In this document: one piece after another, positions 5,278 through 50,193 of the stretch | Position numbering within the stretch: the first letter of the stretch is position 1 | Layout of the letters: each line of letters begins with the position of its first letter | IMG/VR virus record: IMGVR_UViG_3300047470_000529 | Coordinates: 1 to 50,193 of that record | Length of the DNA stretch: 50,193 nucleotides | DNA from: a virus | Reading direction: 5' to 3' (one strand) | Position numbers and translations under genes: made by a program | Notes under the pieces: generated by a model | What the model was told of the DNA's origin: nothing | What the model saw: only the letters and a program-made list of their open reading frames with translations | Database searches by the model: none

Positions 5278-5661
5278 ATGCGTCAATTCACCACTCTGCC
5301 ACCTGAGGAAATCGAACGCCGCCGCCTTTTGTCGATCGGTGTCCTCAAGGAGCAATCCAAGGATGATTGGCAGCGGTGGTATCAGAAGCGCTGCGATACG
5401 TTCTTCTGGAAGAATGGCCCTTGCTGTGCCGGATGCGATCATTGGGCGAGCGATGCAGGCGACATAGGCGAATGCACCTCTGCCCCGCCCGTTTCTGGCA
5501 CTCAGGTTCTCAGGAGCCTCGGCGCCGACTGGTGCACCTACACTCCGCCACCGGGGCAGCCGTTCACAAGTCGCGATCACAGGTGCGGCGCGTTTCAAGA
5601 CACGTTCGACTGGTCTACGCTGGATAGTGATTATCTGCGGGAGATCGGCGCGACCGTCTAG
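5278..5661 (+). CDS. Cys-rich hypothetical protein, last gene of the left operon
   Basis: 127 residues directly after the previous stop. Seven cysteines (CCAGC near 48-52, then GECTS, WCTY, RCGAF) suggest a metal or iron-sulfur site, but I recognise no family. It is followed by a promoter-like sequence and a structured-RNA candidate rather than an obvious terminator. Confidence 0.6.
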   Translation: MRQFTTLPPEEIERRRLLSIGVLKEQSKDDWQRWYQKRCDTFFWKNGPCCAGCDHWASDAGDIGECTSAPPVSGTQVLRSLGADWCTYTPPPGQPFTSRDHRCGAFQDTFDWSTLDSDYLREIGATV

Positions 5662-5663
5662 CC

Positions 5664-5692
5664 TTGCCGCCCGATTCGCGGGGTGGTAAATA
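5664..5692 (+). promoter_or_regulatory. Sigma-70-like promoter for the 5700-5833 RNA
   Basis: -35 TTGCCG (5664-5669), a 17-nt spacer, and -10 TAAATA (5687-5692). The expected start, 7-8 nt after the -10 box, falls at about 5700. That is the first base of the 9-bp closing stem of the RNA candidate. Confidence 0.55.
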
Positions 5693-5699
5693 AAGATCA

Positions 5700-5833
5700 C
5701 TGCGGGACCGGGAACGCTACCCCGTCATCAAGAACCGTCCGAGCCGGTAGCAGGCAACGAGGCGGCTAGCTGGAGGCAACGACCTGCAAAGTGGTGCAGG
5801 CGCCCATGGGTTCCGGTTGCGCACGTCCCGCAG
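5700..5833 (+). ncRNA. Candidate structured RNA of about 134 nt, closed by a 9-bp stem
   Basis: The ends pair perfectly: CTGCGGGAC (5700-5708) with GTCCCGCAG (5825-5833). Inside are GGAAC (5711-5715)/GTTCC (5810-5814), directly followed by GCTACC (5716-5721)/GGTAGC (5746-5751), and a hairpin CCTGCA (5783-5788)/TGCAGG (5795-5800). The octamer GGCAACGA occurs twice (5753-5760, 5775-5782) in the unpaired region. No convincing ORF spans it. It lies between the convergent left operon and the lysis genes. I do not recognise a known RNA family. Confidence 0.55.
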
Positions 5834-5838
5834 CAGCG

Positions 5839-5893
5839 CCCTCCTTGCAGGGAGGAACGTATCGGTCAGGGCCGCCGTAGCGCGAAAGGCCCT
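5839..5893. terminator. Two hairpins in the convergent gap, possible weak terminators
   Basis: CCCTCC (5839-5844)/GGGAGG (5850-5855) has a 5-nt loop. AGGGCC (5868-5873)/GGCCCT (5888-5893) has a 14-nt loop. Neither has a U-tract on either strand. They could still separate the plus-strand RNA and operon from the minus-strand lysis genes. Confidence 0.35.
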
Positions 5894-6431
5894 ACTTCTC
5901 AGCCAGCCCCTTAACCATCAGATCCTGCCCCCAATCGTAAGCCGAGCGAGCATACGCATAATCGGCATCACAAACCTTCAATGCGTCGGAGGACACCTCC
6001 ACTCGGGGCAAGGCGGCGGACTGAGCAGAAACCCCGGCAGCTTGACCGGAACCGGCGCGGGCGGAATCTGCGGCACAGGCTTTGGCCCGCACGCGATGGT
6101 CAGCAATGTAGCGCTCAAGGCCAGCGTTATCCGCCAGCAGCGCGTCGTGGGTCTTGTCGGCTTCACCTGCGATCTCCTGTGCGTCTTTGCGGGCCTTGGC
6201 GGCAACGGCTTGGGCGGCGGCGAACTTGCGGTCGTAGTCGGCGCGGTCGGCTTTCCTGCCGGTCTGTTCGGTGGAGAGCCTGTCGCGGTAGTCCGCCTTG
6301 CCGTGCCAGAGCCATACTGAGAGCAGCGCGAGGGCGATGCAGGCGGATGGCCAGGGGTTCGCGGTGATGGCGCTCCAGATGCGGGATAGGGCGGATTTGC
6401 CCCATGCCAGGATTGCGAGCGGAATTGTCAT
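5892..6431 (-). CDS. i-spanin (Rz-like)
   Basis: 179 residues: a cytoplasmic N-terminus, one transmembrane segment (about 26-42, ending LLSVWLW), and a long charged periplasmic coiled coil rich in Ala/Lys/Asp (about 55-115). This is the layout of inner-membrane spanins, which with Rz1 disrupt the outer membrane at the end of lysis. It is ATGA-coupled to the holin-like gene and carries the Rz1 ORF nested in another frame, which strongly supports the call. Confidence 0.85.
   Translation of the reverse strand: MTIPLAILAWGKSALSRIWSAITANPWPSACIALALLSVWLWHGKADYRDRLSTEQTGRKADRADYDRKFAAAQAVAAKARKDAQEIAGEADKTHDALLADNAGLERYIADHRVRAKACAADSARAGSGQAAGVSAQSAALPRVEVSSDALKVCDADYAYARSAYDWGQDLMVKGLAEK
5978..6166 (-). 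CDS. o-spanin (Rz1-like lipoprotein) nested inside Rz
   Basis: 62 residues in a different frame, wholly inside the Rz gene. I chose the GTG at 6166 because AGGAG lies 7 nt upstream and it gives a compact lipoprotein signal: a basic start, a hydrophobic LALSATLLTIA stretch, then Cys25. The mature part is very proline-rich (PKPVPQIPPAPVPVKLP), as in Rz1 proteins. Thr rather than Leu at lipobox -3 is unusual. It is expected to be an outer-membrane lipoprotein partnering Rz. Confidence 0.75.
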   Translation of the reverse strand: MKPTRPTTRCWRITLALSATLLTIACGPKPVPQIPPAPVPVKLPGFLLSPPPCPEWRCPPTH

Positions 6432-6691
6432 GGCTTCCTCGCATCCTCTGCGTGCTTCTCGACCAGCGACGCGTTGCGGTCAGCCAGTTCGCCGCCCGCC
6501 TTGGTCGCCTGGTAAGCCCAGCCCACCACGTCCTTGATGAAGGCCCCGACGACCAGCGTGCCGAGCGTCTTGAAATACTCGTTGCCGCGCAGATCGGGTA
6601 CGGCGGCTGTCAGCACGAAGACCATGCAGGTGAGACCGAAGACCCCCAGGCCGATCCAGCCTCGCGCGTCGGGCCAGCGGAGGGCGCTCAT
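6428..6691 (-). CDS. Holin-like membrane protein
   Basis: 87 residues with two predicted membrane segments (about 13-32 and 41-60) and a charged C-terminus. Position between endolysin and Rz, small size and ATGA overlaps on both sides fit a holin. The ATG at 6691 is the only start that avoids a large overlap with the endolysin gene. Confidence 0.7.
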   Translation of the reverse strand: MSALRWPDARGWIGLGVFGLTCMVFVLTAAVPDLRGNEYFKTLGTLVVGAFIKDVVGWAYQATKAGGELADRNASLVEKHAEDARKP

Positions 6692-7281
6692 TTCGCCCAC
6701 TCGCCCGTCTTGCCGTGCAGCCACGTCAGGAACTGGCCTACGGTCTTGCCCTTGAGGATCGACGGGTTCGCGTTCGTCGCAGCGTCGCCGGCGATCAAGT
6801 CTGCCCGCGCGCTCACGTCCGACCCGATAACCTTCGCGGCCATGCCGGCGCCGAAGAAGTGCGCAGCGTAGAGCGAGGCGCGATTGATCGGGATACCTTT
6901 GGATCGCAGGATGGACGCATTCTTCTCGGTGAAGGTCTTGGCGCGATTGGTCTGTTCTTCGGCCGTTGGCTTGAGGCCGCCGAACGCAAGGCGCATATCC
7001 GGCCCCCACGTCCCGCCTTCACCGAGCCATGTCGATTTGATGAACTGATAGAGGCCCGAGCCACTGGACGACGCCGCCTTGATATATGGCCGGTCGCCGC
7101 TCTCGATCTTGGAAAGCATGGGCCAGTAGTCGTCAGGCAGATCAGTCGGGATGGCACTCGCCTTAGGCACCCCTGCCCGGTCGAGCGCATAGTGGATCGC
7201 CTCCACCTGCTCTTGCGTGAAGCCAGCGCCCTTTGCGGCACGGGCGGCGTCGAATACGGCTTTGCGTGGGTCGATGGTCAT
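6688..7281 (-). CDS. Endolysin, lysozyme-like / lytic transglycosylase fold
   Basis: 197 residues. The block LSKIESGDRPYIKAASSSGS followed by GLYQFIKSTW (about 56-85) is the lysozyme-like SLT signature, with Glu60 the probable catalytic acid. No N-terminal signal peptide is evident, so export should depend on the neighbouring holin. Some homologues are virion-associated, but the location in the lysis cassette favours an endolysin. Confidence 0.8.
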   Translation of the reverse strand: MTIDPRKAVFDAARAAKGAGFTQEQVEAIHYALDRAGVPKASAIPTDLPDDYWPMLSKIESGDRPYIKAASSSGSGLYQFIKSTWLGEGGTWGPDMRLAFGGLKPTAEEQTNRAKTFTEKNASILRSKGIPINRASLYAAHFFGAGMAAKVIGSDVSARADLIAGDAATNANPSILKGKTVGQFLTWLHGKTGEWAK

Positions 7282-30659: not shown

Positions 30660-32048
30660 TCACCATGCGTCTGGGTTGTAGGTTGCGCCGCCCATCATCA
30701 GCTCAGTCATAGCCCACACCAGCGCATCGGCTCTGTCTGGTGAGCCCTCGCCGACGTACCCGGACGCGGTGAAGTTGCACATCTGGTCCTCAAGGTCGGG
30801 CAAGCTACCAACGTGGCTGACCTTGCCCTGCTCGTACAGCGCGGCGATCGGCTCGGCGCGGATCACCTTGCCGCGGGTAGCTGTGACCTCTTTGAAACGA
30901 GGGATGCGCCGATCCCCCGCAGCGCGGATTACCGCGCCGACCATCGCGCCTCCAAAGTTCTTCTCAGCGACAACACAATCCGCTTCCCACTTTTCGGCCA
31001 TATCAGCGACTCGCCGGCCCCAGCCCTCGGGCGATAGCTGGCAGGTGGCATCCTCCAACACGTAGGCCCGACCATCCACGCCCTTGCCTGCGACCACTAT
31101 GCCGATATCATCGCCTCCGCCGTCGCCTTTGGTGCCCGATGGGTCGACGGCAACCACGATGCGCTGCATGTCGGGCAGATCGCCCTTCGCTACCCGGAAG
31201 CGATCGATGCCCGGTATTTCGCCGCCCTCGGTTACCCGGTCCTCAATCGTCCAGAGCGCCCCGTTGACCTCGCTGGCCCACTCACCCTTTTCAAAACGCA
31301 GGCGCTGGGCCGCGCTCATGTTGGCGAGGATCTCGAAATATTTGGGCGGCAGGTTGGCGGCGTTGTCGGCCGGGTTGACCAGCATCTCGGCATAGTCGTC
31401 GGGGTCGGCCAGCTTCTCCTTGGTGCCGGGCTTCATCTTGGCGCGGAACAGCACATACGACCAGTGCAGCTTAGACGGCGGGTTGCAGTCGAAGTAGGCC
31501 TTGAGGGGCAGGTGGGTGCGACCAGTCGCAGCGGCAATCGCGGGATCAAGCGGGACGTTTTGCGCCAAGCGGGACATCGCCATTTCGACCGAGGACCAGG
31601 CGATCTGGCTGCTCTCGTTGAAGTACAGCGTGACGTACTCGGCGCCCAGGATTTTCTCGACGCGCTCCTTGTCGTCGAGGCCGCCGATCCAGATTTGCGA
31701 GCCGTTCGGAAACTCGATGTAGAAGTCGGTCTTGTTCCAGGTCACCGCCAAGCCGGGGAAGCACAGCTTGAGCACCTTGGGCAGGGTGTCCGACCAGATC
31801 GACGTCTTCGCGTGGTTGAACCGGAAGCGGAATATCGCATGCCGGCCGCCGGGCGCGTTGATGGCCCGCTGACAGATGGCGCGGATCAGCAGGAACGTCT
31901 TGCCCGAGCGCGAGCCGCCCCGGAGCATGATGTTGGTGGCAGCGCTGGCGAGCAGGTCGCGCGCCTCCTCCTGCTTTGGGGTGAGTTTGGCGATCGGCGG
32001 GCCGCCGTTGTGACCTATGCCGGGTGCTATCTTGGCGGGTGCGTTCAC
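30660..32048 (-). CDS. terL: Terminase large subunit
   Basis: 462 residues from the GTG at 32048 (GTGA overlap). Walker A GGSRSGKT (44-51), Walker B YVTLYFNES (138-146), and an RNase-H-like nuclease domain with VVAVDPSG, VVAEKNFGG and the C-terminal DRADALVWAM. It cuts and pumps the DNA concatemer into proheads. An in-frame start at 32180 would lie within the upstream gene. Confidence 0.95.
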   Translation of the reverse strand: MNAPAKIAPGIGHNGGPPIAKLTPKQEEARDLLASAATNIMLRGGSRSGKTFLLIRAICQRAINAPGGRHAIFRFRFNHAKTSIWSDTLPKVLKLCFPGLAVTWNKTDFYIEFPNGSQIWIGGLDDKERVEKILGAEYVTLYFNESSQIAWSSVEMAMSRLAQNVPLDPAIAAATGRTHLPLKAYFDCNPPSKLHWSYVLFRAKMKPGTKEKLADPDDYAEMLVNPADNAANLPPKYFEILANMSAAQRLRFEKGEWASEVNGALWTIEDRVTEGGEIPGIDRFRVAKGDLPDMQRIVVAVDPSGTKGDGGGDDIGIVVAGKGVDGRAYVLEDATCQLSPEGWGRRVADMAEKWEADCVVAEKNFGGAMVGAVIRAAGDRRIPRFKEVTATRGKVIRAEPIAALYEQGKVSHVGSLPDLEDQMCNFTASGYVGEGSPDRADALVWAMTELMMGGATYNPDAW

Positions 32049-32287
32049 AGAAGTCCTGAACGCTCTGCCCAAGCGGCAAAAGCCCGCTCGACACCACGAC
32101 GGGCAGAGCTCTTGCCCTTCACGTGCCCGAAACCCTTCGCGATCCATTTCACGGTCACGCCATCGACCTTGTACCACCACGTAGACGGGTCATCGTTGAG
32201 ATTGCCGATCATGCCGATGGGGCTTTCGCCAAGGTAGGCGATCTCTGAAACGCCGTGAAACGCTTCCCACCGCAAACGCACACTCAC
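32045..32287 (-). CDS. Small protein between the terminase subunits
   Basis: 80 residues, GTG start, GTGA overlaps on both sides. The block PSTWWYKVDGVTVKWIAKGFG (about 35-55) is a compact beta fold and the C-terminus is a basic helix. It may be a terminase accessory protein. Confidence 0.6.
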   Translation of the reverse strand: MSVRLRWEAFHGVSEIAYLGESPIGMIGNLNDDPSTWWYKVDGVTVKWIAKGFGHVKGKSSARRGVERAFAAWAERSGLL

Positions 32288-48898: not shown

Positions 48899-49151
48899 AC
48901 CGCAACAGATCGCGCGCTGGCCGGCGATGATGAAGCGGAAGACTGCCGCGGAATATTGCGACATGAGCGAGGCGGCTTTCGAGCGCGAGATCATCACTGG
49001 TCGGTTGCCTGCCGGAATAATGTTCGGCAATCGCGAGCACTGGAGCAAGGAAGCGCTAGACGGGGCGTTCGCGCGCCTCGCTCGGGGCGACAACGAGGAA
49101 GTGCCCGACTACCGGGCTAAGGCAATGGCGAAGTATGGCAAGGCAGCCTAA
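48891..49151 (+). CDS. Excisionase/AlpA-like HTH protein
   Basis: 86 residues. MKRKTAAEYCDMSEAAFERE (about 14-33) followed by the REHWSKEALDGAFAR wing is the winged MerR-type HTH of phage excisionases. It overlaps the integrase by 17 nt, as Xis genes usually do, so it probably directs excision. Confidence 0.7.
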   Translation: MGEPQQIARWPAMMKRKTAAEYCDMSEAAFEREIITGRLPAGIMFGNREHWSKEALDGAFARLARGDNEEVPDYRAKAMAKYGKAA

Positions 49152-50193
49152 ATATCCGAAGCTGGATCACGTCAAATATGTCCGCGCGAAGGGCAACCTA
49201 TACGCTTACTTCAACACGGGAACATTAAGCCTCAAGGGCAAGGCTATCTATGTACGCCTACCCCACCCGAGCGACGTAGGGTTCTACGACAGCTATGCAG
49301 CTATGAAGGCTGCAAGAACTAAGCGCGCCGCCGTCAGCTATCTGGTATCCGATTTGCTCCGGGACTTCGATGCATTCACCGAGAACCGCACCGACATCAA
49401 GAAGGGCACGAAAGACCTCTCTCGGCATTCGAGCAAGCTGGTTCTTGCAACCCTCGGCGAATATCCCGTAGACAAGGTTGAGCCATCAGACGTTCGATGG
49501 ATGATGGACAACGCAATTACCGGCTCGGGATCGAAGCGGCACTTCCTGGCGATGGTGCGCGCGATCTACAAATGGGGCCGCATAGAGAAGAAGACGCTCA
49601 TCGACCCATCGAAGGACATTAAGTCGCCAAAAGGTGGCGAGCACGAGCCTTGGTCTGACCCGATCCTGAAAGCAGGCTTGGCAGCAAGTGACACGCGCAC
49701 CCGGCTCTCCATAAACCTACTCTACTACACCGGGCAGCGGATCGGTGATGTGCTAAAAATGCGCTGGGACGACATCCAGGATGGCGCGATCTATGTGCTG
49801 CAGGAGAAGACCGGCAAGGAGGTGTGGCCGCCCATCCATAGCGATCTGGCAAAGGTGCTGGCCGAAACTCCGCGCACGGGCGCGACGATTCTCGCCAGCC
49901 CGGCAGGCAATCCGTGGGGAGACGACGCGATCCGCAACGACATCAAGACTTTCACCACGGCGGCGGGACAGCACTGCATCCCGCACGGGCTACGCAAGAA
50001 CGCGGTCAATTCTCTTTTGGAAGCCAGTTGCACGATAGCGGAAGTGGCTTCGATCACCGGCCAGAGTTTCACCATCGTTGAGAGATATGCGCGCAAGGTC
50101 AACACCCGGAAGATGGGCAAAAGCGCTATGTCGAAGATGGAGGACAAAGGCGGAACAGGTAAACCCGATGCAAAACCGGAAAAGGAATCGTGA
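49135..50193 (+). CDS. Tyrosine site-specific integrase
   Basis: 352 residues from the ATG at 49135. SAM-like core-binding domain (about 75-155), then the catalytic domain with Arg202 (TGQRIGDVLKMRW), Lys225 or Lys228, His284-x-x-Arg287 (HGLRKNA) and the nucleophile Tyr318 (IVERYARK). The second His/Trp position is Gln310 (ITGQS), less common. The gene ends the operon at the prophage's right end and its stop is the last codon of the window. Confidence 0.93.
   Translation: MARQPKYPKLDHVKYVRAKGNLYAYFNTGTLSLKGKAIYVRLPHPSDVGFYDSYAAMKAARTKRAAVSYLVSDLLRDFDAFTENRTDIKKGTKDLSRHSSKLVLATLGEYPVDKVEPSDVRWMMDNAITGSGSKRHFLAMVRAIYKWGRIEKKTLIDPSKDIKSPKGGEHEPWSDPILKAGLAASDTRTRLSINLLYYTGQRIGDVLKMRWDDIQDGAIYVLQEKTGKEVWPPIHSDLAKVLAETPRTGATILASPAGNPWGDDAIRNDIKTFTTAAGQHCIPHGLRKNAVNSLLEASCTIAEVASITGQSFTIVERYARKVNTRKMGKSAMSKMEDKGGTGKPDAKPEKES

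Follow-up and report, generated by a model that had tools for sequence, protein, structure and literature searches.

Genomic context of the element

The window, by which we mean the whole stretch of 50,193 bases analysed here, is IMG/VR record IMGVR_UViG_3300047470_000529. Judged by its predicted proteins it reads as a prophage, carrying a dehydrogenase fragment, an integrase and a terminase. The element under study is held by a 230-bp convergent gap (5662-5891), in which the left operon, on the plus strand, ends at 5661 and the lysis cassette, on the minus strand, ends at 5892. The genes that define this setting are:

1-411: host-like short-chain dehydrogenase fragment, from a reading of the translation
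5278-5661, plus strand: last gene of the left operon, 127 aa, no assigned function; upstream same-strand neighbour of the RNA
5892-7281, minus strand: lysis cassette
5892-6431, minus strand: probable spanin, from size, position and sequence only
6428-6691, minus strand: probable holin, from size, position and sequence only
6688-7281, minus strand: endolysin, transglycosylase-like, from a match to the PHROG 4067 transglycosylase
30660-32180: terminase
49135-50193: phage integrase

The 127-aa protein has homologues in L070, L071 and L072, at 85%, 65% and 48% identity, respectively. Neither the probable holin nor the probable spanin has a Pfam match, and a search for spanin homologues returned almost none; synteny was therefore traced via the endolysin and the holin. 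Because the endolysin relatives with named hosts come mostly from sphingomonads (Sphingobium, Novosphingobium, Sphingomonas, Sphingopyxis and Stakelama), the phage's host is probably a sphingomonad as well; one Brevundimonas bin, with high identity, is found among the same relatives. Beside the dehydrogenase fragment, at the left edge of the prophage, the window also encodes a DUF5131/PHROG 2045 phage protein (569-1627; Pfam E 7.5e-79).

Predicted fold of the element

The gap had been read in an earlier note as a free-standing structured RNA gene, transcribed from its own promoter and starting at a closing stem. Its features, as we now place them, are:

5664-5692, plus strand: promoter, with −35 box TTGCCG (5664-5669), 17-nt spacer CCCGATTCGCGGGGTGG (5670-5686) and −10 box TAAATA (5687-5692)
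5700-5833, plus strand: predicted small RNA with a closed four-way-junction fold, from the minimum free energy (MFE) structure and pair probabilities
5700-5708, plus strand: 5' strand of the closing (acceptor-like) stem, CTGCGGGAC, with the core CTGCGG at 5700-5705
5709-5724, plus strand: D-arm-like hairpin CGGG-AACGCTAC-CCCG, 4 bp and an 8-nt loop, immediately following the 9-bp stem
5735-5765, plus strand: third arm of the predicted fold, from the MFE structure
5767-5819, plus strand: fourth, long arm with an apical CCTGCA/TGCAGG hairpin, from the MFE structure and pair probabilities
5825-5833, plus strand: 3' strand of the closing stem, GTCCCGCAG, from the sequence
5840-5855, plus strand: hairpin CCTCCT-TGCA-GGGAGG, a possible 3' end just past the RNA, from RNAfold
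5868-5893, plus strand: second hairpin, AGGGCC/GGCCCT, at the convergent junction, a weak terminator candidate, from sequence and RNAfold

Most of what had been described at this site is indeed there. The sigma-70-like promoter letters are present, as is the repeated octamer GGCAACGA, at 5753 and 5775, and the gap contains only tiny ORFs, in agreement with the statement that no ORF fits. The perfect 9-bp stem (5700-5708/5825-5833) and the apical hairpin (5783-5788/5795-5800) both pair with a probability above 0.8 at every position; in the fold of 5700-5833, whose MFE is −57.3 kcal/mol, the closing stem reaches 0.92-1.0. Two further inner stems, GGAAC/GTTCC and GCTACC/GGTAGC, exist as letters, but their pairing probability in the ensemble is 0.00 and we rejected them. 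The hairpin at 5840-5855 lacks a T-run and is missed by the terminator scan.

Taken on its own, the element is ordinary. Compared with shuffles, its folding energy has a z-score of −1.17 for 5700-5833 and −1.82 for 5664-5833, and a perfect inverted repeat of at least 9 bp occurs in 5.9% of shuffles and in 6.0% of 170-nt tiles of the window. TAAATA is a poor match to a −10 box; 27 promoters in the window score equally well or better, and a consensus promoter scan of the window does not list the one at 5664-5692. The coincidence of promoter spacing and stem boundary, which had been the main structural argument, is thus weak: stem and promoter alone are at chance level.

Searches with the whole element gave no homologue. 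BLASTN found no match in phages and plasmids, nor was the element's DNA found in 397 Sphingomonadaceae genomes or a 21-mer of it in genome contigs. Exact 17-18-mers occur in IMG/VR in one contig each (L129, L002 and L128); these contigs were dismissed as homologues, the L129 match lying in a readable protein-coding frame and the other two looking coding. A covariance model of the window element alone (R1) finds only itself, with the next best hit at E 0.18, and Rfam 15, searched with lax filters to E 10, gives no match to the element. In the absence of a full-length homologue in phages, plasmids and sampled genomes, there is therefore no covariation for the window's own stems.

A conserved promoter beside the lysis genes

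We compared the gap with those of 66 endolysin relatives and 31 holin relatives. One recurring match emerged: positions 5664-5688, the promoter itself, are found in L019, L024 and L097 with 21-22 of 25 bases identical. A pattern of 19 fixed bases, run over 2.9 million IMG/VR viral contigs, retrieves exactly six contigs, including these three. All six copies lie in a non-coding stretch just downstream of the lysis cassette in sphingomonad-type phage contigs. Identity to the window over the 25 bases is 22/25 in L019, L024, L130, L131 and L135 and 21/25 in L097, and the spacers of the copies agree at 16/17 or 15/17 positions. Seven of the 49 records searched contain the promoter, always as one copy and always adjacent to lysis genes.

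Common to the copies are a −35 box TTGCAA, the spacer CCCGATTCGCGCGGTGG and the TA that starts the −10 box, the rest of which varies. The hexamer CTGCGG, present at 0.06% of window positions, stands at offset 7 from the −10 box in the window, L019 and L097; three of the seven copies are without it. A host-type promoter was considered and rejected, the pattern having no match in eight sphingomonad genomes with up to 3 mismatches allowed. On grounds of conservation, which go beyond what a single sequence offers, the predicted promoter is correctly called.

The conserved spacer also includes GATTC (5673-5677 in the window), a GANTC site, where L097 has AATTC. GANTC is recognised by CcrM, a methyltransferase of Alphaproteobacteria.

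Conservation bears directly on the most sober reading of the locus, namely an ordinary convergent intergenic region in which a stem and a promoter have met by chance. Such a reading agrees with the element-level statistics and with the 27 promoter-like sites that score as well elsewhere in the window. We nevertheless hold it to be very improbable, as the promoter's conservation, confined to lysis-adjacent gaps in seven phages, already disfavours it, and CTGCGG recurs at an identical offset.

RNAs behind the promoter in related phages

In L097 the promoter is followed by a tRNA-Leu(UAA) gene, supported by Rfam, ahead of which GCTGCGGCGG also persists as a leader. In L019 it precedes a tRNA-like RNA. 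In L024, ARAGORN places a tRNA-Arg some 50 nt from the start of the transcript, a call without Rfam support at the gathering score; L130, L131 and L135 have other non-coding sequence of no assigned kind. Similarity between the RNA of the window and that of L131 is no more than suggestive of homology, and we set it aside: against shuffles p is 0.0015, yet among 1232 real background segments 2 score equally high.

The orientation of the promoter allows one more explanation: a genuine promoter whose transcript, antisense or read-through, enters the lysis genes at their 3' end and tunes lysis timing, with the stem incidental. The window's promoter does face the convergent lysis genes and has no strong terminator behind it. 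However, in L019, L024, L097, L130, L131 and L135 promoter and RNA lie on the lysis strand, opposite to the arrangement in the window, and from there cannot make lysis antisense; moreover, a tRNA gene follows the promoter in L097 and two hairpins follow the RNA in the window. Lysis control by antisense is, on balance, quite unlikely.

The comparative evidence, that is the recurring lysis-adjacent promoter, makes us conclude that the small RNA gene is probably real. Of the original proposal, a free-standing gene transcribed from a promoter of its own and beginning at the closing stem, the core is thereby strengthened by the conserved promoter and by the tRNA and tRNA-like genes that relatives have at this site, while the two inner stems are lost.

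Two other conserved blocks were seen around these loci. A near-identical block, GGCGGGGTTGGTGTTCGTAGAGCGCCGCCCCGCTGGCTAC, which the window lacks, stands downstream of the RNA at five of the seven promoter loci:

L019, 6185-6234: GGCGGGGTTGGTGTTCGTAGAGCGCCGCCCCGCTGGCTAC block
L024, 5693-5742: GGCGGGGTTGGTGTTCGTAGAGCGCCGCCCCGCTGGCTAC block
L097, 4787-4837: GGCGGGGTTGGTGTTCGTAGAGCGCCGCCCCGCTGGCTAC block
L130, 9747-9796: GGCGGGGTTGGTGTTCGTAGAGCGCCGCCCCGCTGGCTAC block
L131, 13173-13216: GGCGGGGTTGGTGTTCGTAGAGCGCCGCCCCGCTGGCTAC block

It folds as a long hairpin; a pseudoknot that we had considered in it (GGCGGGG...CCCCGCTGGCTAC) was dropped, since RNAfold gives the plain long hairpin. Separately, a hairpin-like conserved block near CCCGCTCTGCTTCGGCATCGGGCT recurs by the lysis genes of L019, L024, L046 and L030/L079, and in sphingomonad phages it occurs both with and without the promoter.

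A family of tRNA-like RNAs

With the L019 stretch as query, we found matches in Caulobacter phage DMCA, in Komagataeibacter phages phiKX1 and phiKX2, on a plasmid of Roseomonas mucosa (where it lies 41 nt past a glycosyl hydrolase 108 gene), in Pseudanabaena phage Pan3, and in more phage contigs and sphingomonad genomes. The resulting family has 19 distinct members, from sphingomonad, Caulobacter, Komagataeibacter and Roseomonas phages, prophages or replicons.

The members begin with a 7-bp acceptor stem, GCTGCGG/CCGCAGC, with the compensated variants GATGCGG/CCGCATC and TGCGCGG/CCGCGCA. A 2-nt link leads to a D-arm of 4 bp with the 8-nt loop GGATGGAC, in which GGA-GGA is invariant in all 19. 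After a variable middle of 41-108 nt comes the T-arm, GCCGG-TATCAAGC-CCGGC (5 bp, 8-nt loop), adjoining the 3' acceptor strand. Family members have their own promoter 6-8 nt upstream.

In the family alignment 99% of cells are paired and 7 of 16 pairs show double changes; none of 500 shuffles reaches these values, and sliding the pairing partner destroys them. RNAalifold, unaided, recovers the same three helices. The family covariance model (R2) detects three further copies among the loci retrieved (one each in L014 and L042, and a second one in L022) and one copy in 240 alphaproteobacterial genomes. Rfam 15 has no match to the family members tested, and we found no published description of the family in the literature searched, the coverage of which was partial.

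In seven close relatives (L005, L007, L008, L009, L015, L016 and L022) the family RNA occupies the gap that follows the lysis cassette and runs antiparallel to the lysis genes; the window's element has this same place and relative strand. It is on the lysis strand in L019, L101 and L103; the Caulobacter, Komagataeibacter and Pan3 members do not adjoin annotated lysis genes.

Some members have particular surroundings. The bacterial-genome copy (L153:1501-1659, minus strand) sits between tRNA-Trp and tRNA-Met genes, and L022 has two tandem copies (5757-5850 and 5957-6068, both on the minus strand), each with its own promoter-like upstream sequence. The variable middles of L147:1501-1646 (minus strand) and L152:2998-3158 (plus strand) resemble, by eye only, a nested tRNA with the T-arm AGGTTCGAATCCT or TGGGTTCAAATCCCA; ARAGORN makes no call in either.

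The RNA of the window as a probable diverged relative

Several family traits recur in the window. The acceptor core CTGCGG/CCGCAG is present at 5700-5705/5828-5833, with CTGCGG at offset 7, within the 6-8 nt that separate family RNAs from their −10 box, and its complement CCGCAG 128 nt downstream. Positions 5827-5834, CCCGCAGC, equal the family's 3' acceptor strand plus one flanking base and follow CTGCGG at a fitting distance, an event expected 0.006 times in 80 positions. A hairpin CGGG-8-CCCG at 5709-5724 reproduces the 7+2+4-8-4 geometry of acceptor, link and D-arm, although the register is one base off that of the family if CTGCGG is aligned. Finally, the convergent gap 5662-5891 lies beside the lysis cassette, as it does for the L005-L022 members.

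Other traits are absent. The D-loop GGATGGAC is not in the window, which has AACGCTAC in the loop, and beside the 3' acceptor strand the T-arm GCCGG-TATCAAGC-CCGGC is replaced by TTCCGGTTGCGCACGT, without a 5-bp stem. The R2 model misses the window: its best score is 6.3 bits, in an unrelated placement, against 42-94 bits for members. Since D-loop and T-arm, two defining features, fail, we do not file the RNA as a family member; in our reading it is a small tRNA-like RNA that has diverged, would act like the family RNAs and probably derives from an RNA of this kind.

The argument from spacing, at chance for the element alone, gains force once the promoter is accepted independently. A 9-bp Watson-Crick stem 5-9 nt past the −10 box then has p = 0.004 in dinucleotide shuffles, and such a stem after this spacing is found at 0.35% of real window positions; the 7-bp acceptor and D-arm geometry at the RNA start has p = 0.001 in shuffles. 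These p-values take the promoter as given and the geometry from the family, and the resemblance had been noticed before testing.

Divergence may also mean decay: the locus could be a decaying or rearranged remnant, now functionless, in which a vanished tRNA or tRNA-like RNA has left its promoter and acceptor stub. The missing T-arm and D-loop signatures, the lack of close relatives and the ordinary folding energy would suit such a history, as would the GCTGCGGCGG leader kept before the tRNA of L097. Yet the 9-bp stem is intact on both strands and the D-arm-like hairpin is kept, and neutral decay would break these; we find a functionless remnant unlikely.

Proposed origin and role

Altogether, we think it rather likely that 5664-5860 is a non-coding RNA gene of a temperate sphingomonad-type phage, with a dedicated promoter, a start at the closing stem and a product that is tRNA-like-derived and possibly a decoy or scaffold. 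Speaking against it are the poor −10 box, the CTGCGG missing from three of the seven promoter copies, the strand of the RNA relative to lysis, opposite to that at the other six promoter loci, the ordinary folding energy, and the lack of a full-length homologue, of the family's D-loop and T-loop and of an R2 match. The sigma-70-like promoter with its conserved spacer would start transcription at about 5699-5700. The transcript would open at the 5' strand of the stem that closes the RNA, with the CTGCGG core, and the closed RNA would measure about 134 nt, its 3' end possibly falling at the hairpin 5840-5855. Such an RNA may have descended from, or been built on, the tRNA-like RNA of this site, keeping its outer shape of acceptor stem, D-arm-like hairpin and two more arms, with the T-arm presumably lost or replaced.

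As for its function, a stable tRNA-shaped decoy or scaffold might conceivably bind a tRNA-handling protein, for example a tRNA cutter during infection. A decoy is possible, fits the tRNA-like context, and takes up a suggestion in PMC7790460 that the tRNA-like domain of YrlA might inhibit an anticodon nuclease. A toxin-antitoxin RNA, also put forward earlier, finds no support in our analysis.

More tentatively, temperate phages of Alphaproteobacteria may share an undescribed class of tRNA-shaped non-coding RNAs, with dedicated lysis-side promoters, that imitate tRNA, for instance as nuclease bait; the window would then represent a diverged branch, its outer shape kept and its inside replaced. 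We regard this broader proposal as possible, though on the doubtful side.

What appeared as an isolated sequence oddity thus becomes a defined locus: a single-copy conserved promoter by the lysis genes with a variable RNA product, be it a tRNA, a member of the covariation-backed tRNA-like family without Rfam match, or a diverged form. If these RNAs imitate tRNA, they would have direct bearing on the ways in which phages withstand tRNA-attacking host systems. The family alignment also provides a handle for annotating the many phage genomes in which such RNAs are unannotated gaps.

Comparison with known systems

tmRNA, like the predicted RNA of the window, has tRNA-like ends joined by a longer insert; unlike tmRNA, the window element is not called as such by ARAGORN or Rfam, and no tag reading frame was found in it.

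The bacterial Y RNA YrlA (RF02553), known in phages too, is likewise a small RNA with a tRNA-like domain, and the most familiar bacterial one of that sort. Chen et al. (2014, RNA 20:1715) is cited for it in PMC7790460, where the idea is raised that this domain could inhibit anticodon nuclease. We rejected an identity with YrlA: in 13 records RF02553 has no match over its cut-off, neither to the element nor to family members, the only weak matches (E 1.3 and 3.4) lying elsewhere in the record of L005, and the Ro60/TROVE gene (PF05731) is absent from 21 phage records.

Phage tRNA genes are alike in that the same promoter drives tRNA-Leu(UAA) in L097; in contrast to them, the window element receives no tRNA call from ARAGORN or Rfam RF00005 and is without a T-loop.

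From the tRNA-like family, the window differs by the absence of GGATGGAC and of the TATCAAGC T-arm, by a closing stem of 9 bp and by the lack of a model match, yet it shares with the family the lysis-adjacent convergent gap, the CTGCGG/CCGCAG core, the 2-nt link and the D-arm of 4 bp with its 8-nt loop.
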